A DNA stretch of 64,000 nt from Chloranthus sessilifolius. Its lineage: Eukaryota > Streptophyta > Magnoliopsida > Chloranthales > Chloranthaceae. The DNA is taken from contig CM037590.1 in the NCBI GenBank assembly GCA_021018995.1, forward strand, positions 105,215,097 through 105,279,096, written 5' to 3'. The notes under the pieces are model-generated. The model did not search any database and was not told where the DNA came from. It was given only the letters and a program-made list of their open reading frames with translations. Positions 2,560 to 64,000 of the stretch are shown here, one piece after another. A program made the position numbers and the translations under genes. Positions within the stretch are counted from its first letter, which is position 1; each line of letters starts with the position of its first letter.

Positions 2560-2975
2560 CACAATAGCTTTTTTGAGAAGTCCTTCAGTCGATTTCGATA
2601 GGTTCTTGAAGCTTTCGACAAGTTCCAAGCAGGCCCTTTGTTCCTTTCGCTAGGATTTAGGATCCTTTCGATAGGTTCTGATAGGTTGCTCCTGAGGATA
2701 GAGCTCCAACATCCACAGCCTTCATTTGGTGTGTTCTACAGGTTGGGGAATCCTTTCGATAGGTTGATCTCTGCGCAATAAATTTTGATAGGTTTTCTTC
2801 TAGCTCCTATCGACAGGTTCCAAACTTCTCGATAGGTTCTCTTCGAGCTCAGGCAACCATTCGATAGGATGATCCCTTTTCGTTTTCGATTGCGCGATAG
2901 GTTATGGATCCTATCGAATTCTCCCATCCTTATGACTTCTTCCTTTTTCAGCCTTCAGATCTATCGACAGGTTGT
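2560..2975 (-). promoter_or_regulatory. Dyad-motif array in element A U3 (CCTATCGATAGG family)
   Basis: At least ten words of the type TCGATAGGTT, CGACAGGTT or CCTATCGA occur in both orientations, irregularly spaced by about 20-60 bp, just upstream of the TATA box. The two half-sites together form the palindrome CCTATCGATAGG. The same cluster is in the 5' LTR (about 15945-16330). A second cluster of the same words sits in front of the accessory ORF at 8262-8540. The words are scattered rather than head-to-tail, so this is not a simple tandem repeat. A role as a protein-binding array is inferred. Confidence 0.72.
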
Positions 2976-3195
2976 TTTCAGCCTGTTTTCACTCCTTCAA
3001 AGCTGCTTTGCTATTGCTGCATGCCCTAAGTGGGCCATTGTTGGGTCTGAACTGTACTGAGAGATGGATTTCTGCACTATGACTGCCTTTTACTGCTATC
3101 TACAAGACATACTCAACAAGCTTTTATTAGTCCACTCATAGGTCTATCAAAGCTCATGTTAAGGGGTGAAAAGTGATACTTTTGAGAGATTAACA

Positions 3196-4935
3196 CACCC
3201 CCAAACCTAAGCTTTGCTAGTCCCTGAGTAAAGGAAGAATAAAGAAAACTAAAATGCCACTTTTGTAGGGTGCAGATGCATTTAGCATGTGCATTAAACC
3301 TTCAGTGAAGGTACCCCCAAACTTCTCTAATAAAATTAGTTAATACTCATGCAACATGCTAAAACAGAGTTCAAGTAAAATAAAATAAATTCCACATCAT
3401 GTCCCTTCAGTTTTAAAGGATTTTTAGCAGAAAAATCATTAGTTTAAAACCTGAAATTCTGTTGTAATTCCTTCATCATCAATCAGTTCATGTCAAGGCA
3501 ATGTGCTTGAAAATTAATGCATAGTTCACCTTTAATTTAAGAATTTTGTTTTGATAATGCCCCAATCAATTTTGATTTCAGACCCAAATCTTACCGGGGC
3601 TGTTCACTCATAACAAAAGTGGAAGGGTGCATCATTTCTCACACAACTCAAGAACAGTTACAGCCCTCAAATAGGACTGCAAGCATGAGCATAGGTATTG
3701 CTCTAACTTCTGAAATTTTCTAACTCTTTTCACCATAGATTAAACAAATCCTCATCTCCACATGACAGCACAATCCATTTCAGATCAATAGGGTCTTTTT
3801 TTATTAGGTTGTAATGTGGCTTATGGGTGAAATTTGTAAAAGAATAATGGGGTAAAAAGGATTTAAATTGAGAAATCAGTAAAAGTAAGGAGGTGGTCTA
3901 AACAACACCTCTTCATTTCAACACAATTCCATCTACTTCTTGAATTTGTAGATTTGAAGTGGCTAGTTTCTAATCCTCTCTTCAGTCTTTCAATGAAATG
4001 ACTTCTTTTTCTCGTTCCTTTTCTTTTTATTTTCTATTTTTCCTTTTCTTTTGGTATGTTTATCTTTTTATATTTTTCTCCATTTTTCTTTTTATGGGTT
4101 GGAATGTCACAACACCACCAAATGTGCTTTCTTCTTTCTCAACCAACCATCAAACCAGCTCTACGTTCTGAAATCTCAGAGTGAGGGTCAGGCTGTATCA
4201 GGTCACTGAGGTTTTGGGTTCAAATTTTCTGGTTTTTATCAAAGAAAATTAGGAATTTTAAGGCTCAAATGGTGTGTATCAAGGGCAGTTCAAAGGTGGG
4301 ACATTTTAAGCTCAAACTGTCCAAGGAATAGCGTTACTTTATGTCTTCAATGCTATGAATGCTGTCAAGCTATTTTAATTTGAATTTGCCTAACTTCTAG
4401 TGATCGAAATTAAATCCAATCAGTCCTTAGAGCAGAAAAATTGCTAAGACACTCTTCAAAGAATTTTTTTTTTCAGGCCCAAATCTCACTAAGTATGGCC
4501 TTCCATCAAATTTCTAGGGTGTATCCTCATAGTTTTCTCTCCTTTCAAGTTCACTAAACATCACTTTTCGAAAATTCTTGACATTTGCTTTATGAAAAAT
4601 GCTAAAACTACAGCTCATTTCAGTTTTAAAAAGTTTTTAATTTCCTCTTTTTTTTCAAAAATCAGGTGGGAAATCACTTTATTTTCAAAAACTTTTTTCA
4701 ACATTACTGCACTAGCATTAACTCATTTCACTGATACACCTGCCATACCCCCAAACCTAAATTGAACAGTGTCCTCATTGTTCAGAGAGCATGGTAACCA
4801 TGAAAAGGGTAGATGAAGAAACAGATGCACAATAAGCACAAAGAAAGACAGAGTACAGAAAAGAACTATGATGAACAACTAACATATGTACATGGTCTAA
4901 ATCATTAAGGGAAAACAAATAAAAATAGTCTATAT
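3196..4935 (-). other. Element A 3' non-coding tract with polypurine tract
   Basis: No coding frame is seen between the accessory ORF stop (4936-4938) and the 3' LTR. On the minus strand the tract ends in GGTTTGGGGGTG directly against the LTR, the expected polypurine tract. A second, nearly identical word (TAGGTTTGGGGGTA on the minus strand) lies at 4746-4759, about 1.55 kb upstream and just after the ORF stop. Several stretches match the equivalent tract of element B (26331-28219), for example the words around CTCCACATGACAGC, so this non-coding block is conserved between two Athila-type families. Confidence 0.75.
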
Positions 4936-7914
4936 TTATTTACAAGCTTCATCAGGCCAACCATACAAGTCTGCCAAAATTTTCAAATCCTCCTTGGATA
5001 AAGGAGCTTTTCCTTGAAGTTGGGACTTTTGGGTGGACTGCTTGGGGGCCTCCTCAGACTGGGCAGCAGATTTATTAGTTTTCTTGGCAGAAGTAGCAGC
5101 AAAGTCAAAATTAGAATTAGAAGGGAAAAGGATAGTAGGATCGAGGCCAAGGGCAGCAGCAACTTGCCTTCTTTCCTCCTTGGAGAGTAGAGTGGAGGAG
5201 GTGTCATGTGGGGGGTGGGGGCTACCTCTTCAGACTGGGTAGTAGGTTCCTTCCCTTTACTGTGAGCAGAAGCAGAGGAAACAGATCTCTTTACAGTAAC
5301 TTTTCTCTTTGTATAAGTCCTCTCAGGTTTTGGTGGGGAAGGTTTAGCTGCAGGAAGATCTTGGGCTGGAGGGGGGGGACATCTACAGGTGGGGTAGGAG
5401 TAGGTTGAGTGGAAGAAGGCGGACAGGGATGGGGGGAGGTAGGATTGTCTGAAGGAGTTGTAGCAAGAGGAGCTAGTTGATATGGTTGAGAAGTCATCAA
5501 GGCAATCCGTCTTTCCAGAAGTTTGATTTTTTTTGCAGCATGGAGCTGGTTGGTCTCAGAGAGTGCTTGGGTAGCCTTAATTATGTCCCTGACATTGGTT
5601 AATTTTCTCAGGAGATTGTCAGCATTCTTCTTCTCAAACTCGGCAATGCGAGTCTGAGCATCAGCAAGTAGTTTGGCGGACTCATAATGAGTCAGGATTT
5701 TCTTCCACCCCTAAGAGATATCCCGGAGCTGAATTCTTTGCTCCAATTCCATGAGAGCAATCCTCTCCTCATAGGATACTTTCAGGGAAGCTCGGAGGGC
5801 AGCCATACCTGTCAGGACATCCCTGCGGATGTAAGGATTTTCCCTCATTGCATACAGCAGAGTGAGATAAAGGGGAATATAGATGGGGGATTTGAGTATA
5901 ATGGGCAAGGAAAGGGGTGGAGTGGAAGATGAGGAGGGGTGGAGAAAACCAGTTCCTCAAGTGGATCAATTTGGGTTGAGGCATCTGTGAAGACAGGTGG
6001 AGTGAGAGTGGGTGGTTGGGTGGTAGGTGACATAGCAACTTCAGTGGCTACTATTGGAGGTGATGGAGGGGTAAAAGATGGGGATGAGATAGGTATGGGG
6101 AAAAATGGAGCTGCTGCCTCCTCAGATTGGGTAGCAGCTGTGGGAGGTGGAGCTATGGGTGAAGATGGAGGAGATAAATGGAGAGGTGATTGGACAGGGG
6201 AAAGAGTGGAAGTGTGAGGGGGTTGGGGAGTTGAAGAGGATGGAGTAAGGGTGGACTGAATGGATTGAAGGCAGGAGCTCATGAGGGCTTGGTTGTTGGT
6301 GTTGGTGGTCAATTGAGTTTGAATGGACTGTAATAGGAAGAGGATTTGAGTGAAAGTATCAGGAATGGTGGGATTAGAGGGGACATGTGTTTGAATAGGG
6401 TGGAAAGGGGAGGAGGGTGCATGGTTGAAATAAGGGGGGTTGGGGTGTGGGGATTCAGGGAGTGGGGTGTACTCATGCTCAACATCTTCCATAATGGATG
6501 TCATGAGGGCAGTGAACCCAGCAGTGGTAAACTGGTCTAAGCCCTGGGTATGAAGGAGGGGTTGGTGAGGGGGAAGTTAGAAATGGGTTGGTCAAAGGGT
6601 GGAGAAGAAAGGGTAGGGGTAGGCTCTGGTAGTGTTGGAGGTTCAAGGACTTCAAGTTCGAGAATTTGAGTGGTGGGTGGAGGTAAAACTAGCTCAGAGG
6701 TAGGAGGAGGGGGGTCTATTGGAAGAGGGACTGATACAATGGGGAAAAGCAAAGTGGGTGGAGGTGTTGGTGATGATGTAGGTAAGGTAGGTGAAAGGAT
6801 GGATGAGGGTATCTCAGCAGTAAGATCTGCTGCAATGGTAGTGGGCACCTCCTCAACCTCCTCCAACTCAGCTGGCTTACTCTTCTTAATCAGGGTTAGG
6901 CTGGTGGACCATGCCCTTTTTCCATACACTTTTAGAGTCAACTTCTCGATTGGCTCATTCCTCTTAACCACATATTTCTCAGCCTTGAGCAAACATGTAA
7001 TGAGCCTGCTAAAAGGCAACCCAACACCTTTAGCAAATGCCTGTCTTTTAAGCACCTTATCATTAATGTCTACCATTGTCTCAAAACTCAGCCGTGGTGC
7101 ACTCAAAAATTACCCTACAGTAGTACAAAGCATCTACAACTAGGGGCCTTCTCTCTTGCAGGTGCCCAGTGACATACACATTCTTTCTCAAAATAGTGTT
7201 GATGAATCTGAGGTTAGGTTGGAGGTCTCTTCTCATCAAAGATTCACCAGATCCCATAATTCCATTGGTGAGCTGTTTAGCCATTTCTCTGAATGTAACC
7301 CATTTGAGTGCTCCCTTAGATCTAGTGGAGTCAAATTGATGTGGAACTCCCAAAGCCATCCCAATGTCCTTGCAATCCACAGTGATTTGCCAATCATCAA
7401 TCAGAATTTCTAGCATAGCCTCATTCCCAGGCACCACCTTCTTTGTCAAATTCTGGTACCACAATTTAACCAGCTTGGGGTACACAGTCTCCTTCAAGGG
7501 TGTAAGTAGGGGTAACAATCCCTCCTTCTTTAGATACATTAGTGTCTCTTGACATTCCTCTATCTCAGTAAAGTATGAAAGATCAAAATCTGTCTCAAGG
7601 ATAAGGCTTAACCCATTCACAAACTCATTAGGGGTGGTTAATGCAGTAGGAAGCTCCACCACAGGTAATATGTTAGGGTTGGGCAAAAGTCTTTCCCCAG
7701 TTGGAGCATATCTCTCTATAGGTATTTCTGCATCAGGCTCCTGAATTACGACAGACTTGGCCTTTTTTGCTTTAGGAGCCTTCTTGGGCTCCCCCTCAGG
7801 AAGCTTCCTCTTGGTAGGTGGGTTGGTGGTAGGTTTTGATTTTTTGGAGGACTTTAGGGTGGAAGAAGCTGGTTGTCGGAATAGGTCAACTAGGGTTTCT
7901 TCAGAATCGACCAT
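4936..7914 (-). pseudogene. Element A accessory (Athila env-like) ORF, frameshifted
   Basis: The frame starts at the ATG at 7914 and ends at the stop at 4936-4938, about 1,000 codons. The N-terminal part (to about 7081) is basic and lysine-rich, followed by a globular region of the kind annotated as 'putative plant transposon protein' in Athila elements. It contains the LWYQNLTKK and GHLQERR patches, which match the equivalent ORFs of elements B and D. A long proline/serine/threonine-rich segment follows (about 6540-5900), then a predicted coiled coil (about 5720-5480) and a lysine-rich tail ending near GWPDEACK. At least three frameshifts (near 7110, 6520 and 5900) separate the pieces. No signal peptide or membrane helix is visible, so the sequence gives no support for a true envelope role. 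Function unknown. Confidence 0.75.
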
Positions 7915-8261
7915 TATGCTCTCAGAAATTGATCTCTTAAAACTCACTCACCAATTTGAATTAAAATTCTAAAGTAAACAGGTAGGAAAATAACAGAGTG
8001 AAGCAGAGAGATAACTTACCCAAAACTCCTAGGGTTTTGCAAAAATCATGATGCACAACACTAATTTCCCAAAAATTGGGTGCAAAATGCTCCTTTGTGC
8101 GGGCTGAATGAACTTGAGGAGTGGCAAAATGAGTGGCGAAAGGTCCTTAGAGTATTTGGCAGAAAATGAGAGCAGCGACCAATGAGGAAGAGAGAGCTAG
8201 GGTTTTGCAGGAGGTGTTGAATGAGCAAAAATGACCTAACGACAGGTGTATAAAGAGTGAA
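7915..8261 (-). promoter_or_regulatory. Leader and possible promoter of element A accessory ORF
   Basis: On the minus strand a weak TATA-like word (CTTTATACA, about 8247-8255) follows the motif array. Then comes a pyrimidine-rich leader containing GCAAAACCCTAGCTCTCTC, typical of plant 5' UTRs. A splice donor-like GGGTAAGTT (about 8019-8027) and an acceptor-like TTTACTTTAG (about 7975) lie just before the ATG at 7914. This suggests a separately initiated, spliced transcript for the accessory ORF. The TATA word is the weakest part of the case. Confidence 0.5.
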
Positions 8262-8540
8262 AATCGATTTCGATAGGATGAGCTGAGTGATTTTGATAGG
8301 TCAAGGCGTCCTATCGAATACTAGAAAGACTACAGCGTGCAGATGAGATGCTTCGATAGGTCAAATCCTTCCTATTGATAGGTTCATGTAGTACATGATT
8401 CATCATCTCGATAGGTTCCTGATAGGTATCCAGAACCTATCGAAAACTTCTTTCTGACCTTTTGAACCTATCGAAGAGTTGTTTTCACCTATTGACAAGT
8501 CTCAGTGCCTATCGAAATCCTCAAATGACCTATTAAAAGG
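8262..8540 (-). promoter_or_regulatory. Second dyad-motif array of element A, upstream of accessory ORF
   Basis: About ten words such as TCGATAGG, CCTATCGA, CTCGATAGGTT and GAACCTATCGAA, in both orientations, fill this interval between the integrase end and the accessory ORF. They are the same words as in the LTR U3 array (2560-2975), but the surrounding sequence is not a copy of the LTR. That points to independent build-up or retention of the motif rather than one block duplication. Confidence 0.72.
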
Positions 8541-8790
8541 TCCCATATGCTCATAGAAACTACATTTTTATGTTGTGTTTAGCCTCAGAACCCAGCAAAC
8601 TCCTTTGTTGTGCTTCCATTTATGTTATTTTCATTATTAACATACTCCCATGATCCCTAGACTGCTGACAAGATTGATATGATGACCAAATTCTAGCATG
8701 ACAATTTTATTGTAAATGAACAAAACATCAAAACAAAAAGTAATCACTTAAAACAGATCCAAAATATGGTACATATGATACACACTGAAA

Positions 8791-10150
8791 TCAGGTATAA
8801 ATTGGAGGGTCCTGAAGATCAATGGTCTCCTCAGGCTCACAAATTTTTTCAACATAAATCTTGAGCCTCTGCCCATTGACTTTCATGACTATACCATCTT
8901 TAGGGTTCATGATTTCTATAGCCCCGGATGGGGAAACATGTAATACTGTGTAAGGCCCATCCCATCTGGACTGCAATTTTCCTGGAAAGAATTTTAATCT
9001 AAAATTGAACAACTATACCTTGTCACCTATTTTGAATTATTTCTGCAGAAAATGCCTGTCATGAAAGGCTTTAGTTTTTTTCTTGTAGATCCGGGCATTT
9101 GAATATGCTTCCATCCTTAACTCATCAAGCTCAGATAATTGCAGTTTCCTATTCACACCAGCAGAAGTTAAGTCAGAATTTAATGCTTTAATGGCCCAAT
9201 ATGCTCTATGTTCTAACTCAACAGGCAAGTGACATGCCTTGCCATATACTAGCCTAAATGGGTACATCCCTATGGGAGTCTTATAGGTAGTCCTATAAGC
9301 CCACAAGGCATCTGGCAGTTTTATGGACCAATCTCTCCTATCAGCTCACACAGTCTTCTCTAGGATGCGTTTGATTTCCCTGTTGGAAATCTCTACTTGC
9401 CTACTGGTTTGTGGGTGGTAGGGAGTAGCAATTCTGTGTGTCACAAAATATTTTTCCAATAGTTTTTTAAAAGGTTTGTTGCAAAAGTGGCTTCCTCCAT
9501 CACTAATAATAGCTTTAGGGGTGCCAAACCTAGAGAAGATGTTGCCCTTTAAGAACTTAATGACAACCTTATGATCATTTGTTCTTGTAGCTATGGCCTC
9601 TACCCATTTGGACATAGTCTACAGCTACAAGGATGAAATTATATCCATAGGAGGGGAGAAAAGGTCCCATAAAATCAATTCCCCATATGTCAAATAGTTC
9701 AACAACAAGCACAGGTTGTAATGGCATGGAGTTTCTTTTTATAATACTTTCCATTTGCTGGCATTTGGAACAAGCTTTGCAATGCTGTATTACATCCTTG
9801 AACAGAGTGGGCCAATAGAAACCACTTTGAAGCACCTTTGTAGCAGTCTTGTTGCCACTGAAATGGCCCCCACAAGCCTGTTCATGACACATGGTTAGAA
9901 TATTTTCAAACTCAGTTTCAGGAAAACATCTTCTTATCACCTGGTCTGCACAATACTTAAAAAGGTAAGGATCCTCCCACATGTAATATCGAATGTGTGA
10001 GAAGAACAGATTCCTATCATCCTTACTCCAATGTGGGGGTGCCCTTCCCACAGCAAGATAGTTTACTATGTTGGCAAACCAAGGCATACTTATCTCCATA
10101 GCAAAAAGCTGCTCATCTGGGAAGGAATCATTGATGGGCAAGCTCTCTAT
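8791..10150 (-). pseudogene. Element A integrase, degenerate
   Basis: The integrase part of pol would insert the cDNA into host DNA. The N-terminal HHCC zinc-binding region is visible at about 9895-9770 (H..H, then CKACSKCQ). The core contains the first aspartate in GIDFMGPF (about 9660), the second in ISDGGSHF (about 9500) and the glutamate in QVEISNREI (about 9385). A C-terminal part with KLQSRWDGPY ends at 8791. No chromodomain follows, as expected for Athila. Breaks near 9615, 9310 and 9030 split the frame, so no functional enzyme can be made from this copy. Confidence 0.85.
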
Positions 10151-10468
10151 TTCAGCATCTGGAATCCTTGATAAGTGATCTGCAACCACATTTTCAACCC
10201 CCTTCTTGTCTTTGATTTCCAAGTTGAATTCCTGCAGAAGAAGAATCCATCTAATTAGTCTAGCTTGAGCCTCCTTCTTAGACAAGAGGTATTTCAGGGC
10301 TGAATGGTCAGTTTACACAGTGATCTTGGATCCCAACACATATGATCTGAACTTTTCCAAAGCAAATACAATGGCTAGCAACTCCTTTTCAGTTGTGGTG
10401 TAATTTAATTGAGTATCAACCATTGATTTACTAGCATATGCCACCACACATGGTGCTTTGTCTTTCCT
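10150..10468 (-). pseudogene. Element A RNase H domain, degenerate
   Basis: Following RT on the minus strand, the region contains the family motifs [17 protein letters not shown] and [10 protein letters not shown] (the conserved TDH) and ends in [11 protein letters not shown], typical of Ty3/gypsy RNase H. It would remove the RNA strand during reverse transcription. At least one stop or frame break near 10310 separates its N-terminal half from the frame that continues into integrase. Confidence 0.78.
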
Positions 10469-11918
10469 TTATCCTAACACAGCATCAATGGTAAATTCTG
10501 ATGCATCACACATCAGCTCAAATGGCAGAGAAAAATTAGGAGCTTGCAATATAGGAGCAGTAGTCAAACAGGTCTTCAGAAGTTCAAAAGCAGCTAGGCA
10601 TTCATCATTGAACACAAATGGAACCTCTTGGCACAACAAGTGGCAAAGAGGCTTGAAAATTTTGCTAAAGTCTTTTATGAACCTCCTGTAGAAACCAACA
10701 TGGCCCAAGAATGACCTAACTTGTTTGACAGTTTTGGGAGGGAGAAAATGTGCTATTAAATCAATTTTAGCTTGATCAACCTCTATTCCTCTTTGGGAAA
10801 CAACATGTCCTAGGACTATACCTTGAGTCACCATTAAATGACTCTTTTTCCAACTCAAAACTAGGTTGGTCTCCTCACACCTTTGTAGCACAAGGCTGAG
10901 ATGGTGCAGGCATTGGCTAAAATCATCCCCATAAATAGAGAAATCATCCATAAAAATCTCTAGAAACTTGTCAATCATGTCAGAAAAGATAGCATACATG
11001 CATCTTTGAAAAGTGCAGGTGCATTACATAGCCCAAATGACATCCTTCTGTATGCAAAGGTTCCAAATGGACAAGTGAATGTGGTTTTTTCTTGATCTTG
11101 AGGGTAAACAGGAATCTGGTTGTATCCTAAATAACCATCAACAAAACAGTAAAAAGCCTTACCTGCCAACTTATCTAAGATCTGATCTATAAAAGGCAAT
11201 GGAAAGTGATCTTTGCTAGTTTTCTCTTTGAGCTTGAGATAGTCTATACATACCCTCCAACCACTGGTCTGTCTGGTTGGAATTAGCTCACCTCAGTCTG
11301 CTTCAACTACTGTGATCCCAGATTTCTTGGGCACCACCTGGGTAGGGGCCACCCATTGAGAATTTGAGATAGGATAAATGACCTCAGCATCAAGAAGTTT
11401 GACTACTTCCTTCATTACAACTTCCTGCATGTGTGGGTTGCGCTTCCTTTGCATCTCTCTAGAAGGTTTAGAGCCCTCTTCAAAATGAATTTTGTGCATG
11501 CACACTGCTGGATTTATCCCCCCAAATCTGCAATAGTCCACCCTATTGCTCTCTTATGCCTTTTTAGCACACAAAGCAATTCTTCTTCCTGCTCAAGAGT
11601 GAGGGAGGAAGAGATTGTCACTGGCAGTTTGTGATTGACTCCTAAAAAGGCATATTTTAAAGATTTTGAGAGTTGTTTTAACTCCACATTTGGGAGACTA
11701 ATGAGTGAAGGCAGTAGGGGTGCCTTAGAAGGTGGTGGAAGAGGTAATAAAGCAAAAGTCCATGGGTGATGCTTTGCTAGCCTTACTTCAGAATTTACAC
11801 TTTCCACTTGCTCAAGCTCAGATGTAGAAGCTTTTTCTTCCACTGTTTCATTCCATACTTCTTTAAAAACATTAAACAAATCATTACCATGCAGCAGCTG
11901 AGGCAAATTTTCTTGCAC
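10469..11918 (-). pseudogene. Element A reverse transcriptase, degenerate
   Basis: The RT copies genomic RNA into DNA. A pre-RT linker (11918-11545) ends in GWTIADLGG. The palm begins with QWVAPTQVVPKKSG and continues through VCIDYLKLKEKT and FCFVDGYLGYNQI-like sequence to the catalytic FMDDFSIYG (about 10930-10956), whose FMDD box is characteristic of Athila. The thumb and connection are represented by LGHVVSQRGIEVDQAKI. Frame breaks near 11290 and 10990 and a stop after VVEAD interrupt it. The order and spacing of motifs are otherwise normal for the family. Confidence 0.87.
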
Positions 11919-11945
11919 AAACTCATCCAGTACATTAATGGAAAA

Positions 11946-12451
11946 TCAGTCCTCATTCTCTAAGTGAGGCTGCTGGGTTGCATTGTACACATTCAACTTG
12001 ACTTTTATATTTCCAAAAGATACTTTCATGACCCCTGATCTACATTGTATACAAGTATTTGCAGTGGCCAAAAGGGGCCTGCCTAAGATCACAGGGATAG
12101 AAGTAGCACATTTGCTCGACTCCATATCTAGCACCAGGAAATCAGCAAGATAAAAGAATTTGTCAACCCCAATCAAGACATCTTCAATGATCTCCACAGG
12201 CTTCCTTTCAGATCTGTCAGCTAGTTGTAAAATACTACATGTGTGGGCTTCAACTCTCCTAAGCCCAGCTTCTCATATACTGAATATGGAAGTAAATTCA
12301 CACTAGCTCCCAGATCTAACAAGACTTTTTCAATGGTATGATCCCTAATGATGCAGGGGAGTGTGGGGACTCCAGGGTCTTGGAGTTTTGTTGGAGTTGC
12401 AATAGTCAGTATTTGTTTCACTTTTTTTGCTGAAAAGACTTTCTTGGACAA
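11946..12451 (-). pseudogene. Element A aspartic protease, degenerate
   Basis: The retroviral-type protease would cleave Gag-Pol. The active-site motif is DLGASVNLLP (about 12325-12290). Athila proteases typically have DLGA in place of DTGA/DSGA, so the L is a lineage trait rather than damage. The second half carries the ILGRPLLATA flap/dimer motif (about 12090). A break at about 12200-12220 splits the two halves. It lies between gag and RT, as expected. Confidence 0.8.
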
Positions 12452-12749
12452 ATATATCCTTGATTGTCTTTTGTGGGTGCAAAGGTCTTTTAAAAACTTA
12501 GCATAGGCTAGAATCTGCTTGATTGCATAAGTAGAGGCAGGTTGATCTTCACTTACTTAAAAGTTTCCATCATTTCCTCTATTTTGGCATGCCCTTTATC
12601 AAAAGGGGAAGGTGCTTGCATTGCCTTAGGAAATGGCAAATGTGAGACTATTCCCCCATTTACATCCTTAGCCAACTCATCATCTCTTTTTTTGAATTTT
12701 TTTTTTTTTTAGGACCATCATTATCCTTCTTATTCAACATGAGTTGCTC

Positions 12750-14314
12750 CTATTGTACTTTCTCTTTTTCTTTTTCTGAAATTTTCAAAGGCCCACAGCC
12801 TACTTGATTGTCCACCAACCTTCCACTTCTTAATGTGGTGATAGATTTGGCTTCCTCATAGGAAGAAGAAACCTCACCTACCACATATTGTCTCCTTAGG
12901 TTGTCCATAGGTTGGCTAGGCAGCCTCCCTTCCTCTCTCTTGGTCAAAGCATTAAATAGCTGACCAAGATAGTCTTCTATCTTTTTAATGCTTTGGCTAT
13001 GAGAGTGTACATTTTGAGACATGGATCCTAAGTTCTGTAATGAGCTCAGAACTTGTTCCTCAAAAGAAAGTGATCTAGCAGTTGGAGGGGGTGCAACTTG
13101 CTGCACAGGCTGAGCCATAGGCTGAGTCATGGGTTGTTGATAGTGGGGCCTTGGAAAGTAATTCTGGTAGTATGGTTGAGCATTTTTTTAAGGCATGGGT
13201 TACTGTGGCTGCTGCTGCTGGTTTGAAAAAGTATCTTGTCTCCACCTCAAGTTGCGGTGGTTTCTCCATTGGTAACCAGCAGTGGGCTGTTGTCCAAAAG
13301 ACTGAGTGGCAGCTACATGCTCCATCACAAAGTCTGAAAATTGAACAGCTGAGGGGCATTCCTCAAGGGAGTGAGAGGGGGACTGGCATATAACACATGC
13401 CTCCTCTACTTTGGCAGCCATGGGTGACTGCATTGCTCCCATGAGCTTATCAAACTTTTTGATCAAATTGTCCACTTTCCTTTCCAAATCATTGTGCCCA
13501 CTCACCTCATACATCTTTCCTCTTGTGGTATTTTCTTTTACCATTCTAGGGATGTCCAAGTCCCTGGACAATGTCTCTCTCTGCATGGAGTTCTCACTGA
13601 TGATGTCGAACAACTCCCAAGCCTCCTCGGCAGTTTTGTGGAGGTAAGTACCACCATAAGAGGCATCTACCATATCTCTGCTTTTAGAATCAATTCCCTG
13701 ATAGAAACTTTGAACAAGCTGCCATTCAGGGATTTGATGATGAAGACATTTCTTCTGGAGTTCTTTGAATCTCTCCCATGCTTGGTGAAAGTCCTCAGTT
13801 GGGTCTTGAGCAAATAAGATAATACCCTTTCTCAACTGGCTTGTCTTGGACATGGGAAAAAACTTGGCCAAAACGACATCAAGATCACTCAGATCAACAT
13901 CTTTGGGTGGGAGCATTACAACCAAGTCTTGGCTCTATCCTTTAATGAAAAAGGAAAGAGTCTCATCCTGGTTGCTTCCTCCCCCAAACCTGTTATATTG
14001 AATGGAGTGCACGGTCCTAGAAATTCATCAATATGCTTATATGGGTCTTCTTTGGTCAGGCCATGGAATGAGGGTAGCATTTGGATTATGGAAGACTTGA
14101 TCTTATAGTTCCCTTGAACAGCAGGGAATTGAATATAGAAGGGGGAATTGTAAACCCCTGATGCATTGAATTCCTTCAAGGTTCTAGGTTGCTCACCCAT
14201 TTCAGCAGATTCAGATGTAGCAGATGTGGGTGAGATTTGTTTAGACCTAAGAATTCTTTCAACCTCTGGATTTAATGGAACAATCTGAGGATTGAGAGTT
14301 CTCCTTCCAAACAT
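12750..14314 (-). pseudogene. Element A gag, degenerate
   Basis: Gag would form the virus-like particle. I take the ATG at 14314 (MFGRRTLNPQ), which matches the element B start MLGRRSLSP. The retrotransposon-gag core (IQMLPSFHGLTKEDPYKH, RLFPFSLKDRAKTWL) spans about 14120-13920. The nucleocapsid-type zinc knuckle CVICQSPSHSLEEC (C-x2-C-x4-H-x4-C) lies near 13410-13370. The C-terminal part has a predicted helical segment (QSIKKIEDYLGQL) and ends before a lysine/glutamate-rich stretch. A frameshift at about 13915-13925 and a stop at about 13197 break the frame. Confidence 0.86.
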
Positions 14315-53450: not shown

Positions 53451-53562
53451 GTCCGGAATACGAGTCGACCCTTGAACAACAAGGAACCATCCTCCTTGAT
53501 TGAGAAATCTGATCTGATGCCCTCAGTTACATCTTGACGACTCTTCATTAACGCTGGGTCCC

Positions 53563-54060
53563 TCATCTGTAGCTCATGGATGTGCTCAATATTCGTCTCA
53601 CTGATATGTTAGCCAAAAAGGCCCTTGTGGCGCGTGGCTCAATATTTTCATCATACATCGAAAGATCTTCAAACAACTTCCATCTATGCATACCCCGAAC
53701 CAAACTGGCCAACAGAGCTGGACCCTTTCGACTTAGGGCATCGGCTACTACGTTAGCCTTACCTGGATGATACTGTATGGAACAGTCATAGTCCTTAAGA
53801 AACTCCATCCATCTGCGTTGTCTCATATTTAGTTCCTTCTGTGTGAACAAGTATCTGAGGCTTTTATGATCGGTAAAAATCTCGAAGGTCTCACCGTACA
53901 AATAGTGTCGCCAAATCTTCAACGCAAATATGACTGTTGCTAGCTCTAGGTCATGTGTCGGATAGTTCTTCTCATGTTCTTTCAACTGTCTTGACCCGTA
54001 AGCTATCACTTTCTTGTGTTGGTTGAGCATGCAACCCAACCCATTGTAACTGAAGCATCA
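53563..54060 (-). pseudogene. Element D RNase H domain
   Basis: A largely open frame with [47 protein letters not shown] and [15 protein letters not shown], the usual sequence of Ty3/gypsy RNase H motifs. It follows RT and precedes integrase. The conserved acidic residues in the visible motifs (E in HDLE, D in TDH, D in VADALS) are retained. Confidence 0.85.
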
Positions 54061-54960
54061 TCATAATCGCGAATCCCCACTCAAGGAATTGCTAATCGGG
54101 GCTGAAGTGAGTCTCATTTTGAGTTCTTGAAAACTCTTCTCGCCGCCTCACTCCATTGAATCTCACATCCTTCCTTGTCGGTCGTGAGAGGTCCGCTATT
54201 CCCTCAACAAAAGCGTCGATAGTAACCTTGCCGGTCAAGGAAACTACGGATATCGATCCATCTTAGGTGTTCCCAATTCACTCGCTTGATTTTGGGCGGA
54301 TCCACTATGACACCATGCTTGGAGCGACATGTCCCAAAAAGGCTAACCTCTTCTAACCAAAACTCGCATTTGTTGAGTTTGGCATAAAGTTGTCTTGGCC
54401 AAAGTTTGTAGAGCGAGTCTTAGATGCTTCTCATGTTCTTCTTGACTTGGAATATATCAAAATGTCATCGACAAACACTACGATGCAAGAATCCAGATGT
54501 GGTTTAAACACCCGGTTCATTAAATCCATGAACGACGCCGATGCGTTTGTCAACCCAAACGGCATCACTAAAAATTTGTAGTGTCCATACCTTGTTCTGA
54601 ATGCAGTTTTCTGAATATCTTCACCTTAACTCTCAACGATGGTATCCGACCGAGGTCGATCTTAGAGAAATACCTTGCTCCCTTGTAGTTGATCGAACAA
54701 ATCATCAATTCTCGCAACGGGTATCGGTTCTTCACGCTTAGTTTGTTCAATCGTCGATAGTCAATGCATAAGCGCATTGACCCATCTTTCTTCTTTACAA
54801 ATAAGTGCTCCCCAAGGAGACACACTTGGTCTTACAAACCCTTTATCCATAAGTTCTCGTGAATCGTTCCTTCAATTCCTTCAACTGGTAGGAGCCATTC
54901 GGTATGGTGCCTTTGAGAGTTGTTCTGGCGGTAAGTCGATGGCAATTCCACCTCCCTCTC
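54061..54960 (-). pseudogene. Element D reverse transcriptase, degenerate
   Basis: [20 protein letters not shown] and KNRYPL (about 54790-54710), FSKIDL (about 54660), then in another frame [17 protein letters not shown] (about 54580-54530) and the catalytic [13 protein letters not shown] (about 54475-54440). Frameshifts near 54960, 54620 and 54400 break the frame. Motif order is normal for chromoviruses. Confidence 0.82.
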
Positions 54961-55551
54961 TGGAGGTAACCCTGGCAATTCATCTGGGAACACATCTTGA
55001 AACTCTCGCACCACTGCGATTTCCGAAATGACATTCTTCTCTTCCTTATCAGCCTTCAAGAATGCCAAGTAACTGCCACAGCCCTTTCTGATCATTTTCT
55101 CGGCCCTTACTGCTGAGATCAGTGGCATAGATGACGACCTCACTCCTTGAAACCGAAATGATCTTCTTGTGTTGGGTCTGAAAATGACGACCTTGTTCTT
55201 GCAGTCGACTGTTGCACTGTGCTGCGCCAACCAGTCCATGCCAAGGATCACATCAAACCCCTGCATGTCTAGCAGTATCAATTTCGCTTCCAATTCATGC
55301 ACCTCTAGGTCTCGAACTGCTATAATGACGGATTTGCAAGCTAACTCCGTGTTTATAAATTCTCTAGTCGGAATAGACATGGATAGGACGAAGTCCAACA
55401 CCTCTGGAACAATCTTCATCCTCTTGGCAAATCGTGGGGTGACGAATGAGTGGGTAGACCCTGGGTCTATCAACACTCTAGCGTCATATCTAAAGACACA
55501 TCCTTTCTCATACATGGTTAAAGTACCTATAGTACGCATACATACATACAA
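54961..55551 (-). pseudogene. Element D aspartic protease region
   Basis: The motif VLIDPGSTHSFVTP (about 55475-55435) is the active site in the DPGS form usual for this chromovirus group. ILGMDWLAQHSATVDC (about 55245-55200) is the conserved second segment. FQDVFPDELPGLPPEREVE at the end (about 55010-54960) is the lead-in to RT, after which the frame shifts. Confidence 0.82.
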
Positions 55552-55759
55552 AATTTACACATCTTTTCACATCCCTAGTTCACGAATAACTTTAGTGTTT
55601 AGCAAAGAAACTACACTATTTCTATTGAATGCACCTCCTCTATCTAAAGGAATGAAATTTCTTAAATTTAAAAAGATTCTCACCTTGGATGACGTCATGC
55701 ACGTTCCCTGCTTCTGACGATGTTGCATAAACTCTCCCTTACTGCGACCGTTTTCCTTG

Positions 55760-56967
55760 CTTGAATTGGTCGTGACATCGAAGCTGAAATTGTCTTCTCC
55801 TTGTTTGCCTCAGGACAGTCCTTAATCACGAGGCCCATCTTGCCACATTTAAAACAACCTCGCATCCCTTGTCGGCAATCAGCTGTTTTGTGGGACTTGC
55901 CACACTTGGCACAAGTGTCCCTTGGTGTTGAAGATGCAGCTCATGAGAAGCCTTGTGTTATCGCAGCTCCATTAGAAATGGCAGGATTCTCATATCTCAT
56001 CGGTCTCCCTGATGCCGGAAATGGAAACTTTTGATATGTGCTCTGTTGTGTCAGTCTCCCATATCCTGCTTGAAACGGTTGTTTCTGATTTTGTGCTATG
56101 AATCTCGGCTTTTTCTTTATTGGCTCGTAGTTTCTAGTTCTATTCTGATCCACGTTTGTTCTTCCCTGTTGTTCCCTTCGATGGTAGCGATTGTTGTTCT
56201 CTTCTTCCACTACTAGCGCCTTACTCATAACCTCTCCGTAAGTTTTCAGCTGAAATGGAGCAACTCCTCCTCGAATATCTGACCTCAAACCCTGTTGAAA
56301 CCTCTTTGTTTTCATCACTTCTGTAACCACATAGTCGGAAGCGAAACGAGCAAGTCTCAAAAACTCCACTCCGTATTCCCTTACTGTCAGGTTTCTTTGT
56401 TGGAGTTGTAAAAACTGTACTTCCATCTGATTTCTCACCACTTCGGGGAAATACTGTTTATTGAATTCTTCCACGAATTCATTCCACGTCCATGGCGCAT
56501 TTGGGGTCTCCTGAGCCCTAGTTCGCGACACAGACTTCCACCAAGGTCCAGCCTCCCCATCTAACATGTACGCCCAATGGACGCTCTCATCTTCCGCAAG
56601 TGAGTACGTTGAAAGCTTTTCCATCTCACTTAGTTAATTTTCAGCCATAGTGTCTCGCTGTTCTCGAAAAAGTTTGGAGGTCTCATCCTCCTGAATTCCG
56701 TAAATGTCAAGTCAGGGGTGTCGGCACTCCCGGCGATGTAGGTGGCTGGTGCTGATTACCAGTATTTTGGGCTGACAAAGATGCTGCCATGGCAGCCGCC
56801 AGGGTTTCCATAGTGTGCATCATCTTCTGACGCTCCTCTCTCTCTTCATTTCTCTCCCTGATCCTATCTTGTTCTCTCAGATCTTGACCCTGACGGTCTT
56901 GATCGTGAATTTCGGTCTGTTCTTTGTTCCCTTGACTACTACTCTCGGGAATTTCTCTTTCTCCCAA
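55760..56967 (-). pseudogene. Element D gag, degenerate
   Basis: An arginine/glutamate-rich N-terminus (to about 56707) is followed, after a frame break, by the retrotransposon-gag core with AYMLDGEAGPWWKSV, NEFVEEFNKQYFPEVVR and FLRLARFASDYV (about 56575-56330). Two zinc knuckles are readable near 55905-55820: CAKCGKSHKTADC and CFKCGKMGLVIKDC; in the second the histidine is replaced by valine. The true start is uncertain because the region from 56967 to 57015 has a frame break. Confidence 0.8.
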
Positions 56968-57137
56968 TGGTACTGTGTGTTCGTGGAGATGAACTCACCT
57001 CATCAGAAGTTCCTATCATGACCACCCCTTGGTTGACCTCTCCTTCCTGAAGACATCACGATCTGCATATGAAATGAACTTTCGTCAGCAGAAGTCCCTA
57101 TGCTCTGACAAAAGAATGATTGTCAGAATTTCTAGAA

Positions 57138-57157
57138 GAAACAGCTTTGATACTAAT
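57138..57157 (-). other. Element D primer-binding site
   Basis: On the minus strand TTAGTATCAAAGC directly follows the 5' LTR. It matches TTGGTATCAGAGC, the initiator-methionine tRNA site of chromoviruses, with two transitions. Confidence 0.82.
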
Positions 57158-59392
57158 CAGGATAGCCCGATTTTCGTTACTCAAAAATTGCCATCAAGAC
57201 GACGACCCTGAGGTCATGCACCTTAAATCTAATGAAACATCACATATCGATTAAAAGTCAACAATTTAAATTACCAAAGCTTCAAATTAATTAAGTCTCC
57301 ATGTTTCAATAAGGTCTAGCAACTAATGTGATTTCTCGGTCTCATGCCAATTCAAGAGCGGAGGAACTACCTTGGCCCATAAATGATAATCTTATCATCT
57401 TGATAGTTTGCCAAAAGGAAAGTATAGTATTTAATTACATTTAAAAGAAAGGACTTGACATGCCAAGCCACGAGTACTCCCTACTCGCCACTTCTAGTCC
57501 TAAAGCACCTCTCAAAGAATTCCTGGGGAGGAGGTTCTAACTCTTCTCCGCCTACGAAATCCGCACCCTTAGGATCAACGTCTCTTGAAACCTGTGTTGC
57601 TGCGAGTGTTGGACCTGCGACGTATAGTCTAAGGGGTGAGCTACATCCTAGTTCAATAGGGAAACGTAAAGAACATATAGATTAATTCTGACATATATGT
57701 TGTGCAGTAAAAGAAAAGTATAGTTTATCTGCTATCACTATCTGGAAGGCAATCGAAATAACTGAAGGAAAAGGTGAACACCACTACTTACTTTACATGG
57801 TTTTATTCTTTCTCATCTTACTCGTTTAGTTGTGACTCCGGCCTGATAACTTAACTCCTTAACTTAAATAGTCCCCGAGCAATATAGCATCGAGCCCCGA
57901 TGGAATACCCACCATCGTCGTCTAACTAGACAGTTATCAATTTTGCATTCCCTGGGAATACTGCCCCAAGACCCTTTCTCCTAGGTGGCGGGGTCTACTG
58001 TTAAATCTGCATCCCTGGGATGTGCTACTGTATACGGATTAACTGCCGTACCGGTCACGGATATTCTGCCGAGTCAGTCGTGGGTATCCCGCCACGTCGG
58101 TGGGGTATTCTAAACAAACCTTAAATAACAAAAATATCAAGTGTGCCTTACATGTAGTTATTCACCGTGATTTTGCTAATTTTTAATATATTAGGACTTA
58201 TCACTTTACTTTCTTTTCCCCACTGATTCTCATCTGCACCCCTGGGATGCTACTGATATGTTGTATCATGTATGTATTCATCTTGTAGTTCTTGTGTCCC
58301 CTTGGGACCTCTGGCTTCATTTTCTAAAGTCAACACACGCACGCTCTATTTATGTGACATGATGAGGTACTTAGTTTAGCAATTAAATCAGATTACATAT
58401 GCGAAACTGAACAATGTACGTGTTTCGATAAGGTTCCCTACCTCCAGGCAAAACCCAGTGGTCCCTTCTGGTAGTGATGACACATCCCGATCTCACGTCA
58501 ATCTACATTTCATGCGAAAAGACATGCCTTAGAATGGTCATTAGTGGTCACTAGCACTCCTTGAGCGCATAGTTCACATGAGGTATATTTGTATACATAA
58601 AAGAATTAAATTTTAGTTTTGGTGTATCGCTCGAGCGGTTGCTTAGCCTCGCTCGAGCGACCTCTTAACCTCGCTCGAGCGGTCGCGAAGCCTCGCTCGA
58701 GCGACCTCTTAACCTCGCTCGCACGGTTAAAACGAGGTGTCGGATTACCTCGCTCGAGCGAGCCTATTCTTCCAATATGGGTCTCGCTCAAGCGAGCCCA
58801 GAACGCACTATTCCCAGGTTATATATTATGTCCTCCCTCAAGCGAGACGTTTAGATCGCTCGAGCGAGGGCGAAAACCTTTACTTCATGATTTTATGCAA
58901 GAAATCTATTCTATTTCCTTAAATCTTAAATAAAATTAATCGGCCATTGCCCCTAAACATTGTAGGTTATCATTAAGACATACCTAAGCACTTCTCAAGA
59001 ATTATCTCTTACCTAAATCGATGGATCTCGTAGTCGGCTTGATCCAACGTTCGAATCCCTGTTAGAAACGAAGAGATCTCTACGGTTCTGGTTCTACCTT
59101 CTCTCCAGGTCTTCCACCGGTTTACACTCCCACCAGGCCTTAGCCTTTCCTCCCTACAAGTCTCTCTTTTCTCTTTCTCTATCTTCCTTCTCTCTATTTA
59201 GGTTAAAATGATGTTACGTAGGGGAGATACTTCTCTCCACTTTCACTTATATAGTGAAAGGAAAGGAAAAATATAATATGTTATACACATATACACACCG
59301 TGTGTATATGTTGATCCAGGTTTCCTTATGAACCACACATACACGTGCGTGGCATGTGGCATATACGATTCCGAAAATCTAGGGTTGTTACA
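57158..59392 (-). repeat. Element D 5' LTR
   Basis: 2,235 bp and very similar to 47623-49857. The TATA box is at 59246-59255 and the motif array at 58625-58870. The inner terminus reads ...GGCTATCCTG in place of ...GGCTATCACA on the minus strand, so the conserved CA end is mutated or rearranged. ACAAT follows at 59393-59397. Confidence 0.9.
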
Positions 59393-59397
59393 ACAAT

Positions 59398-59539: not shown

Positions 59540-61773
59540 TGTGACAGCCCGAATTTCAGCACCCCAAAATCCGTGCCATCAGCACAACCCTCAAGGCCGT
59601 ACCCTATAACCCTGTACGGAGCATTGGTAGAAATAGGCAACCATACATCAAGTATAAGAATTTTAGTCTAACTAAGTCTCCATGCGTTAATAATAATAAT
59701 TTAGCAATCCAAAAGTCAGTTCTAGTTTCATGCCAATACATGAGTAGAAGAACTGACCCGAACCATCGGTGATAAACTGTTCACCCCAGATGGTTCGACA
59801 AAAGAAACATCATATTTAGTTACATTCAAGATTAAGGCTTGACATACCAAGCCGTACAGAATGCTCTCAAAACTAACTCTCAATGTACGCAAGGGGTCTC
59901 CTAGAAGAAGTCCTCAGGAGGAGGCTCTAACTCTTCTCCGGGCACGAAATCTGAATCCTCTGGATCCACGTCTCCCGAAGCCTCTGTTGCTGCTAACGCT
60001 GGACCTGTGACGTATAGTCAAAAGGGGTGAGCTACATCCTAGCTCAATAATGAAACACAGTGAACATATAAATTAAGCTCTCACATACATGTTAGAACTG
60101 ATTTTAAAGCACGATTTATCTGATAGAACTTCTGAGAAAACAATTTAAATAATCGAAAGTGAAATGATAACTGCAACTGTTACTTTACATTATCTTGTTT
60201 ATTCTCATCTTACTGGTATAGTTACGGATTCGGCCTAATCACTTAAATCTTAACTTAAATAGTCCCCGAGCAATATAGCATCGAGCCCCGATGGAATATC
60301 CACCATCGTCATCTAAATAGACACTTGCTGTATGTTCTCAATTTCAAAACTACCTAGGCCCCTTTCTCTTAGGTGGCGGGGTCTATTCTCAAATCTACAT
60401 CCCTGGGATGTGCTACCAGTGTACGGATTGGCCGCCGTACCGGTCACGGATATCCTGCCGAGTCAGTCGTGGGTATCCCGCCATGTCGGTGGGGTATTCT
60501 AATTAAACCTTAAATAACAAAAGTATCGAATATGCTTTACATATAGTTATTCACCGTGATTGTGCTAATTTTATTACATTAGGCCTTATCACTTTTCTTT
60601 TGTTTCACCGTTAGGTTTGATCTGTATCCCTGGGATGTCACTGATTCAATGCATCATTTTGATGCCCATTATCACATTTCCATGTAACCTGGGGACCTCA
60701 TGGTTTCATTTTGAATTCACACCCACACACCCATTTTGGAATCACGTTTGATACATGACTATTCTCTTGAATTACTCTACATATATGGTTTTGACAAATT
60801 AAAGTACACGTTTCAAGATATTCCCTACCTCAATGCAAATCTAACACACTCCTTTCTCATAGAGGTTTACACGTAACAATCTCACGTCAAACCTACAATG
60901 CATGTGTCAAGGATACCCTTAGAATGATTTCTAGAACCCTTGGGAACCTTAGCTCCCATGAATTACACCAAAAGAATAAATAGAATAAATAAACATGTAG
61001 TGCCTCGCGCGAGTGGGGACTATTCATCACTCAAGCAATCACTTGACCTCGCTCGAGCGAGCACTTGACCTTGCTCGAGCGATAAAAACAAGGTCCTAAT
61101 CTCTCGCGCGAGTAAGCACTATTCATCGCTCGAGCGGCTACAATGAGGTACTCAACCCTCGCACGAGCGATCACTATTCATCGCTTGAGCGGTTAAAATG
61201 AGGTATCTGAAGCTCACGCTATGCCTCGCTCGAGCGAGCATTCCCTTCACTAAGGGTCTCACTCGAGTGAGCCCAGAATACAGTTTATGCTCAGATTTTA
61301 TATTTCGACCTCGCTCGAGCGAGCCATTTAAACCGCTCGAGCGAGGAGCGATGATAACTAACTCTTGATTCGTTTGAGAACAAGTTTCTTACTCCATTTA
61401 AGGCCCTATTAATGTCAAAATTATCTAGCTAATAATTTATACTTTATATGTAACACACAAAACATTTAAAACATACCTCCATTAGATCTTATATAGACCT
61501 AATCCAAGATCACCCAAATGAGGAGAGTTTCAAAAGCTCTTCCTCCAACCTCTTTCCAGATTATCCACAGGCTCAAACCCAAACGATCCTTTCTAAACCC
61601 TCTCCTCTTTCTCTCTATTTAACTCTCCCTTTTTTCTAAGCTAAATTAGGTCACGTATGGGAGACTTCTCTCCATTTAACTCTCCACTTATCTAGTGAAA
61701 TCTAGTGTGTTTCGCACATACACAGGTAGTGTGTATATATTAAGTGTGGTTCCCAAAAGTCGGGGTTATGATA
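59540..61773 (-). repeat. Solo LTR related to element D
   Basis: A 2,234-bp LTR starting TGTGACAGCCCGAATTTC and ending GGGGTTATGATA (mutated from GGGGTTGTTACA), flanked by identical CCGAC at 59535-59539 and 61774-61778. It is similar to element D's LTRs along its length but clearly diverged. It carries about twelve TCGCTCGAGCGA-type words at 61000-61345, several in a TCGCGCGAG form. The internal region was lost by LTR-LTR recombination. Confidence 0.9.
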
Positions 61774-63073
61774 CCGACGGTAAAGCTGGTCAGAGAGGTG
61801 CGCCAATGCGGTCGCGTCCCACACGTAGGAGGGGACTTGATCGAAGTCCTCGAGAACCATAAAAAATAACCCGGTGACACATCCCCGAGTCGAAGAAGAG
61901 AAGAGTACCGCACTAAGGAAGTGCATCAAGAATGCTTGGAGCACCCTATCCATAGCCAACCCCAACTCCACCACGGGCTCTCAGCCCGCCACTATCACAC
62001 AACGCACCTCATAAGTCGCCTTCGCCTCTGAATGGCACCTCGGGGGGATGAAGCCACTCTCAAACGTATCAGAAAACCAAGTGACTCGAACTACACCTGG
62101 CCCTGAGTCGCCGACCTATACGACACGCCCAAAATCTCCTCACACATCTCCAAATAATGTCCTGCCATCCGCCCCATAATCAGCTCGCCCTCAAAACGAA
62201 GACCGGTGATGCAGACCTAGTCCTCTGGAGTCGGCAACATCATACCAAATGGAAAGAGAAGTGCCTGATGCTCCTCCCTCCACCTCTCTAAGATCACCGC
62301 GATCAGGCCACGATCTACCTGAAAAGGCTCCAGTGCTAGGATCGATCCGAAACTGAAAGACACCAGACGCGCCCACTGAAACTCTGACAAGGCACGATAC
62401 CAAGTATGAGACTCGGCCCATGCCGAGCTGATAGCCAGCTGCGGGGGCTCCTATTGAACAAAATACAAATAATAACAGTAAGACTAACACATTTCAAATA
62501 TGCCCCAAACACAATAACAATTTACAGCAAACACACAAAAAGTGATAAGGGCAACTGAATAGACACATGACCTACCTCTAGATGTCGTTATGATGCATGA
62601 GTGAACACACAATCAATCATTAATGCAAGTTCGACATAAATTAGAAGGGTTTTCAGATCCTAATAAGCCTATGTCATAACCTAAATGGCTAAGAAAATGA
62701 AAGAACTCTTGCTCATAGATGCTTACCCGACCTCGAGCGAAGAAATCCTCTAGTGGGAAATGTCTTTGATCTCGATGCTCCTCAGCTCTCTTACCTTGGT
62801 GCTCCGCAGCTGCACTCTCAGCTCTCTCACCCTTAGGTACCGCACCCTCGACCCTCTAGCCCTCATTCTCAGCGACTAGGGCTTAATCTTGAGTACCTCC
62901 TCCCTGACCCCTGACTGATCAACCTCCAATACCTCCTCTCCAACTACCTCCCCAACATCCACCTCCCCGACAACGTCGGTCTGAGCCTCAGAAGTCTCAC
63001 CTATCTCTACCCCTAACATCCTCTCCAACTCAGAAATGGTAATATCGTGCCCACCAATACCCTCATCCTCCAT
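61774..63073 (-). pseudogene. Plant mobile domain (PMD) gene, second copy, truncated
   Basis: The minus-strand counterpart of 19613-20950. Exon 1 runs from the ATG at 63073 to about 62727 (MEDEGIGGHDITISELER...; ending RHFPLEDFFARGR) with an intact GTAAGC donor. An intron to about 62451 ends in CAATAG. Exon 2 carries PTPED-stop-VCITGLRFEGE, the DRVLQAFLMHFLSAVLFSS helix and YVWDATALAHLSDQLYRR, where the solo LTR interrupts it. Beyond the LTR only a few matching bases remain at 59530-59539. A TGG-to-TAG stop in exon 2 and one in exon 1 show decay. The two copies are clearly diverged, so the duplication is old. Confidence 0.75.
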
Positions 63074-64000
63074 CCTAGAACGAAGAGCTCAAAATATTGA
63101 AGAGAACGAAAGAAACGACACCTAAAACGGACGACTGGATCACGAAATATCATGAAAACATGAAAACTAGAGCACAAAGAAGCAAGGAAACAGAGAATCA
63201 AAGACTAATATGGATCGCACGACAAAAATGAAAAGTTTTGAACTATTTATAGGGTACCGCTAAATCACGCGCGTGAATCCAGGCACTTAAACTAATCATG
63301 CACCACTCCAACCACGCTTAATTCGGATCACACGATCGGTCTTAAGCACGTAAACCAATCATCACCCGCTCAAACTAACCCGACCATCTGGTTGCGTGTA
63401 ACCTACTCAGCGCGTAATCACTTCTAGCGTCCACATAGTGGCGCACGAATGCTAATGATTACCCGTACAGTGACCAGCCACTGCCCTAATCACGAGCTCA
63501 GTACCGTGCATTTAAATCGATCAAACGACTGGAAACTGGCGCTTAATGACATTCTGACGCTCTGAACGCGTGTCCACTCTGGCACGCAATTAATTTATGC
63601 GTTCAGAGTGAAGTGCGCAATTCCCCAGAAACACAAAATAAAAAATGCCCAGGATAGCACGCTCACAGGCTTAAAGTAAGAGATCTCCGACACTAATTAT
63701 TAGCCTAAACCACACCCTTGTTAAGCTCGATCCAAAACATTTCAGACTTAAAGAAATATCCACCTCGATAACTAAAAGAAAATGCACCAGACCAAACCAA
63801 AAACCAAAAAAAACATCACCTATACACTCCAACTAATACCAAGACTAAAGAAAAACCAAAAAAAATGCCCCCCATCATCCATTCACTTGAAACTAAACTA
63901 AACTAAACCAAAAAAAATACTCCTAGAACACCCCAGATCAAAATAAATAAATAAGATCAGACCAAATTTAATTAAATAAGCACCATGCTCAAAACCAAAT
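63074..64000 (-). promoter_or_regulatory. Upstream region of the second PMD copy
   Basis: The minus strand has a TATA box (CCCTATAAATAG, about 63242-63252) and a GCGC-word array (63260-63640: words equivalent to GCGCGTGATT, TTAAGCGTGG, GGCGCTTAATGAC and TTGCGCACTTC). A donor-like TTTTAGGTGTC and an acceptor-like TTCTAG lie just before the ATG. It aligns with 18640-19612 upstream of the first copy, including the non-array stretch around 63610-63720, so the duplicated unit is larger than the gene. Confidence 0.62.

Follow-up and report, generated by a model that had tools for sequence, protein, structure and literature searches.

Family-specific word arrays in the long terminal repeats and before the accessory genes of three plant retrotransposons, with a possible VANC-like role

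Elements, arrays and promoters

The 64-kb window analysed here, a stretch of Chloranthus sessilifolius DNA (contig CM037590.1), consists of plant-type DNA made up of nested long terminal repeat (LTR) retrotransposons, three of which, called A, B and D, are the subject of this report. An original prediction had proposed that each family carries a motif of its own, clustered both in the LTR and in front of an accessory open reading frame (ORF), and that the clusters might belong to a self-recognition or anti-silencing system similar to that of the VANC proteins of VANDAL elements, which are Mu-like DNA transposons of Arabidopsis. Our data directly support the arrays, their placement at TATA boxes (except in the D LTR), the family specificity of the words and the homology of the three accessory proteins. 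The features concerned are as follows.

1333-16551, minus strand: element A, putative Athila-type Ty3, LTR identity 91.0%
15945-16330, minus strand: A 5' LTR array (U3) of CCTATCGA words, upstream of a TATA-like box at 15767-15759
2560-2975, minus strand: A 3' LTR array, CCTATCGA words as in the 5' LTR
8262-8540, minus strand: A internal array of the A word, reaching a TATA-like box (8255-8248) ahead of the accessory ORF
4939-7947, minus strand: A accessory region, Transposase_32-related, with its ATG at 7914; frameshifts/stops break the ORF
23708-37319, minus strand: element B, putative Athila-type Ty3, LTR identity 94.6%
36410-37110, minus strand: B 5' LTR array of CCTCGCG[AC]AG words, upstream of a TATA box at 36189-36180
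25430-26130, minus strand: B 3' LTR array, CCTCGCG[AC]AG words as in the 5' LTR
32255-32480, minus strand: B internal array of the B word, overlapping a TATA-like box at 32275-32267
28490-32041, minus strand: B accessory ORF, Transposase_32-related, two in-frame stops, ATG at 31975
47626-59392, minus strand: element D, a chromovirus, LTR identity 95.2%
58625-58870, minus strand: D 5' LTR array of CTCGCTCGAGCGAG palindromes, downstream of the LTR TATA box at 59254-59246
49095-49335, minus strand: D 3' LTR array, CTCGCTCGAGCGAG palindromes as in the 5' LTR
51825-52030, minus strand: D internal array of the D word, with a TATA box after it at 51810-51801
50690-51610, minus strand: D accessory ORF, intact, 307 amino acids, Transposase_32-related, predicted model like VANC21
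59669-61351, minus strand: D', a diverged D-type LTR fragment, not among the features of the original prediction
61004-61351, minus strand: D' array of the D word in this fragment

A and B fit two related Athila-type families, an assignment made from gag matches, the primer-site sequences and an accessory ORF on the 3' side: both match Ty3 gag, and their primer-site contexts (TGGCGCCGTTGTC and TGGCACCGTTGCT) fit what we take to be the tRNA-Asp-type site of the Athila lineage. The C-terminus of the D integrase carries a Chromo domain (PF00385, 26.3 bits, cut-off 25.1). LTRs, gag and pol pieces are present in A, B and D, which are therefore not Mu-like DNA transposons of the VANDAL kind.

In all three elements the internal array extends up to or into a TATA-like box, 191-334 base pairs (bp) before the accessory ATG. 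The LTR arrays end 178 bp upstream of the TATA-like box in A and 221 bp upstream in B, the D LTR array being the exception in that it lies downstream of its box. By eye, splice-donor-like GTAAG/GTAAA sequences (at ~8018, 32042 and 51667) and also AAACCCTA-type boxes can be seen in A, B and D in the leader that runs from the internal TATA box to the ATG of the accessory ORF.

Specificity, form and CpG content of the words

When words were counted in each interval and compared with 500 dinucleotide shuffles of that interval, the A and B counts came out far above the means of these composition-matched shuffles, as predicted. The word TCGATAGG occurs 20 times in the 64 kb and all 20 copies lie inside the three A intervals (7, 6 and 7; shuffle means 0.03, 0.02 and 0.01), as do 23 of the 24 occurrences of CGATAGG, while 24 of 35 CGCGAG words fall in the B intervals (11, 8 and 5; shuffle means 1.21, 1.00 and 0.12). 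For D, 31 of the 44 start positions of CTCGAGCG are in D intervals, and 11 of the other 13 lie at 61050-61336, in D'. The A word reaches 37.9/kb in A arrays compared with 0-2.9/kb elsewhere, and the D word 27.4/kb in D and 31.6/kb in D' compared with 0 in the other regions counted, which agrees with the claim that motifs differ between families.

In a hold-out design, a word was picked from one interval and then sought elsewhere. Twelve of 13 trainings returned to the other intervals of their own family (A 3/3, B 3/3, D 3/3, and 3/4 for T, a further family described below; p <= 1e-7), and the training on interval T3 failed (p 0.39). The p values are too favourable wherever a target duplicates the training interval, as the LTR pair of an element and T3 with T4 do, and for D also through overlapping palindromic hits. 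As one LTR duplicates the other, a stricter test removed the LTR copy and asked whether the LTR word finds the internal array, which received 11 of 56 hits in A (p 2e-15), 2 of 20 in B (p 0.002) and 15 of 54 in D (p 4e-25, with overlapping palindromic hits). In the opposite direction, internal words gave 19 hits in the LTR arrays of A, 19 in those of B and 45 in those of D. When an expectation-maximisation motif finder was trained on the A or B internal array, 11-16 of the 20 best held-out hits lay in the element's own LTR arrays; for T the finder failed. For A, B and D, word counts and hold-out results bear out a motif private to each family and clustered in the LTR and before the accessory ORF.

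The words differ in symmetry. Read in element orientation, the A word, AACCTATCGA, is a half-site that is found in both orientations and sometimes forms dyads; the B word is CCTCGCG[AC]AG, with 23 of 24 exact sites pointing one way; and the D word is the palindrome CTCGCTCGAGCGAG, for which steps of 22 bp recur. The expectation of palindromic or half-palindromic motifs therefore stood for D and A and fell for the directional B word and for the T word, GYGCKYRATT, which is not palindromic; strict dyads for all families are rejected or weakened by B and T. Every word holds a CpG. Among the D sites at 51825-52030, 58625-58870 and 61004-61351, steps of exactly 22 bp recur, close to two turns of the helix, a spacing that could put bound proteins on one face of the DNA. 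Motif conservation between D and D' was 78% vs 52% (p 2e-6) with sites defined on D and 56% vs 47% (p 0.05) with sites defined on D', a result that is ambiguous, the alignment itself being anchored by the motifs. A scan of viral contigs with the D word returned at least 120 stretches, with one match each in 77 of the 80 stretches listed; we read these matches as chance and did not use them.

The observed/expected ratio of CpG is 0.04 in A gag-pol (9040-14356), 0.05 in B gag (32794-34400) and 0.10 and 0.12 in the accessory ORFs, compared with 0.74-0.91 in the A arrays and 1.05-1.29 in the B arrays, where 26 of 40 (A) and 88 of 107 (B) array CpGs lie inside words. Judged from the sequence, either the A and B lineages kept their array CpGs while nearly all others went, or they gained the arrays late. 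The retention argument is not extended to D because D gag-pol, at 0.80, is not depleted. The ratios of 0.04 and 0.05 against 0.80 also indicate that the mutational or methylation histories of these families differ greatly. After insertion, array CpGs decayed like other LTR CpGs (9/20 v 9/15, 29/63 v 10/18 and 10/35 v 15/69, none significant), so local protection of array CpGs is not seen in these copies.

Accessory proteins and the comparison with VANC

The accessory ORFs of A, B and D are homologous to one another, to judge from a profile of 12 outside relatives, PF20167-annotated homologues, that matches D (E 4e-43), B (3e-27) and A (8e-26). Scored against the Pfam model PF20167 itself, A (13.8 bits), B (34) and D (27.2) all stay below the curated cut-off of 45, as do the outside relatives scored (28.6-43.2 bits). 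Fifteen relatives (P0001-P0015) were found, with 7,990 candidates sharing most words scored, and 12 of them make up alignment A2, from which P0010, P0012 and P0015 were removed by hand. The named relatives are from Camellia sinensis, at ~30% identity, and none was found in viral_contigs or genome_contigs.

The top PDB match of the D protein model is VANC21 with its target DNA (9lnj), far ahead of the next, and a VANC-like fold is predicted for this protein, with moderate fold scores. DUF1985 and DUF287 were found in none of the 15 members at E up to 10, PDB sequence searches with A1, A2, A4, a plant mobile domain (PMD) piece, P0016 and P0014 did not return VANC21, and an NCBIfam search gave nothing relevant.

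Passages in PMC5735166 and PMC10398659 report that VANC21 and VANC6 bind short words clustered in the non-coding DNA of their own family and remove DNA methylation, and that the words of these two related VANCs differ (PMC5735166); a meeting report (PMC8756742) mentions a crystal structure of VANC21 that was unpublished. The elements described here are similar in the predicted fold of the D protein, in having short words clustered in their own non-coding DNA, and in the different words of related families. The A and B LTRs align over their first 97 columns (75%) and one 48-bp stretch, whereas their arrays, which start ~210-220 bp into the LTR, are unalignable and consist of different words, the pattern reported for VANC6 and VANC21 (PMC5735166). 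In contrast to VANCs, which come from DNA transposons, A, B and D are LTR retrotransposons whose accessory proteins lack a DUF1985 or DUF287 sequence signal, and their DNA binding and demethylation, reported for VANCs, are putative. Beyond the VANC plan, arrays stand not only in the LTR but also at the promoter of the accessory gene itself, two Ty3 lineages share this arrangement, and the consensus word holds a CpG, of which VANC21's YAGTATTAY has none.

Within the Athila lineage, the accessory ORF of sunflower Athila 14 is described as partially similar to Transposase_32 (PF20167), with a predicted nuclear signal, and Tekay accessory ORF proteins have been likened to double-stranded RNA-binding proteins (PMC11728184). 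A, B and D have the protein family and 3' position in common with the Athila ORF; they differ from it in their word arrays, which do not appear in the passages of PMC11728184 on that ORF, and in that D is a chromovirus with such a 3'-side ORF. Both that paper and PMC12844716 call the functions of accessory ORFs in plant LTR retrotransposons unknown in the passages concerned, and the latter, from 2026, leaves open whether Athila ORFs shape methylation. In titles and the openings of abstracts, with few subscription journals, no bioRxiv and the 9lnj paper itself outside coverage, no VANC-like system in LTR retrotransposons is described; the paper behind 9lnj may already note relatives of the VANC21 fold.

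The explanation that we favour, and regard as reasonably probable, is that the accessory proteins of A, B and D are VANC-fold DNA binders of their own arrayed word that keep their own promoters unsilenced, word and protein having co-diverged. On this view, the product of each accessory ORF would have a VANC-like fold and bind DNA sequence-specifically, its target being the CpG-containing word of its own element, both in the LTR and in the internal promoter from which it is expressed. Occupancy of the two places would keep or make these promoters active and free of silencing marks, such that the internal promoter sustains a self-regulating loop and the LTR promoter provides genomic RNA, and related families would be kept separate by the joint divergence of word and protein. 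Of this scheme, we infer that the protein enters the nucleus, binds the word and removes silencing, and that word and protein co-diverge. Self-recognition by the accessory protein appears most likely, with anti-silencing as its likeliest outcome; by element class and the missing DUF1985 these proteins are not VANCs, but they probably work like them. For A, B and D the homologous ORFs, the predicted D fold and the word divergence between A and B speak for the VANC-like proposal of the original prediction.

If this is true, sequence-specific anti-silencing would not be confined to a single DNA transposon group but would extend to LTR retrotransposons of two Ty3 lineages, and a Pfam domain of unknown function would gain a mechanism. 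The escape of these elements from silencing would become a direct binding question with defined probes, and natural protein-word pairs would be available for learning how this fold reads DNA.

Other explanations and the T family

The main rival, which we consider unlikely, is that the accessory protein binds the arrays as a plain transcriptional activator, without effect on methylation or other silencing marks. Foamy virus Tas is a viral transactivator that serves both an LTR and an internal promoter, and the A and B arrays, which sit at TATA boxes in the LTR and internally alike, have this two-promoter activator anatomy. However, the D LTR array, downstream of its TATA box, is a better fit for a chromatin role, and the D fold resembles VANC21, which is reported to remove methylation, transcriptional activation not being its primary effect according to passages in PMC5735166.

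Less likely than plain activation is that the arrays are sites for different host transcription factors, gathered as enhancers, and that the accessory protein does something else. LTRs are reported to carry host factor sites (PMC12844716), and binding of the word by the accessory protein is itself putative, but each of the three families would need a factor of its own, active at the LTR as well as at the internal promoter that drives the accessory gene, and the VANC-like fold of the product would be a coincidence.

That the arrays are neutral tandem repeats from slippage is very improbable. Tandem Repeats Finder reports a 22-bp unit in the D LTR arrays and 22- and 55-bp units in D', and the internal and LTR arrays of D share an 80-bp stretch (77%, blastn), both of which favour slippage. 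Across the A, B or T arrays, however, it found no unit, which rejects or weakens this explanation, and it found none in the D internal array despite the 22-bp site steps; the same word also stands in places that do not align (blastn gave no match between LTR and internal arrays of A or B at E 1e-3), and CpG words were kept in CpG-depleted elements. Least probable of all is a role for the arrays at the RNA level, in packaging, dimerisation or structure, rather than in DNA: among the six 146-nucleotide pieces folded, folding is strong for those of D (z -5.5, -5.6) and mild for one A piece (z -2.5), and the D LTR array would be transcribed, but RNA structure as a general role is rejected or weakened by the unremarkable B pieces (+0.8 and -1.0), the other A piece (z -1.5) and the position of the A and B LTR arrays upstream of the TATA-like box.

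T-type sequences, comprising PMD pieces and Tat-like gag-pol pieces, lie between and around A, B and D.

37500-37944, plus strand: T1, GYGCKYRATT-type words, then a TATA box at 37937-37945, upstream of Tat-like gag-pol pieces
16557-16880, plus strand: T2, T word, then a TATA box at 16873-16881; interrupted by the A insertion
19085-19440, plus strand: T3, T word, running up to a TATA box (19431-19440); PMD coding pieces lie downstream
20393-21798, plus strand: PMD coding pieces, broken and/or intron-split
63260-63640, minus strand: T4, T word, then a TATA box at 63253-63244, upstream of PMD pieces at 61705-62318

Each of the four arrays ends at a TATA box, and all nine exact matches to GYGCKYRATT, a consensus derived only after the T arrays had been seen, fall in the four intervals. 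T3 and T4 align at 72%, T2 and T4 share a short match outside the arrays, and otherwise none of the T arrays align. A PMD (PF10536) was found at 20627-20995 with 47 bits (cut-off 34.9), the other T3 and T4 pieces scoring below the cut-off. The claim that the Tat/PMD array lies in front of the PMD accordingly stood for T3 and T4; membership of T1 and the PMD genes in one element is only putative. Residues 126-176 of the PMD protein P0016 match DUF1985 at chance level (E 0.22), hhalign of A2 with P0016 gave nothing, and the PMD structure model was too poor for fold comparison (predicted local distance difference test, pLDDT, 36.1; predicted template modelling score, pTM, 0.23). For the T family, the only pointers to a VANC-like reading are the promoter anatomy common with A, B and D and this chance-level DUF1985 match.

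Passages in PMC7156037 and PMC9899485 report that genes needing the PMD proteins MAIN/MAIL1 carry a promoter motif, DOWN, and call direct DNA binding by PMD proteins unknown. The T3 and T4 arrays, followed by PMD coding pieces, are similar to that arrangement, but the T word differs from the DOWN motif quoted for MORC1 (CATGCAGTTT). A wider idea would be that VANC, Transposase_32-related and PMD proteins form one superfamily for transposon self-recognition, present in plant DNA transposons as well as in LTR retrotransposons and then domesticated as MAIN/MAIL1; in the retrotransposons, the CpG of the word would be a methylation-sensitive switch, with the element both reading and erasing its silencing. 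We regard this as doubtful, placing it below plain activation and above host factor sites.

Element A has inserted into a T-type array, where matching target duplications of 5 bp (GCGTG) flank it, and B into a tandem array of ~248-bp units (23132-23707 and 37320-37491) directly before T1. Downstream of T1, the Tat-like element encodes a G-patch domain at 43412-43996.

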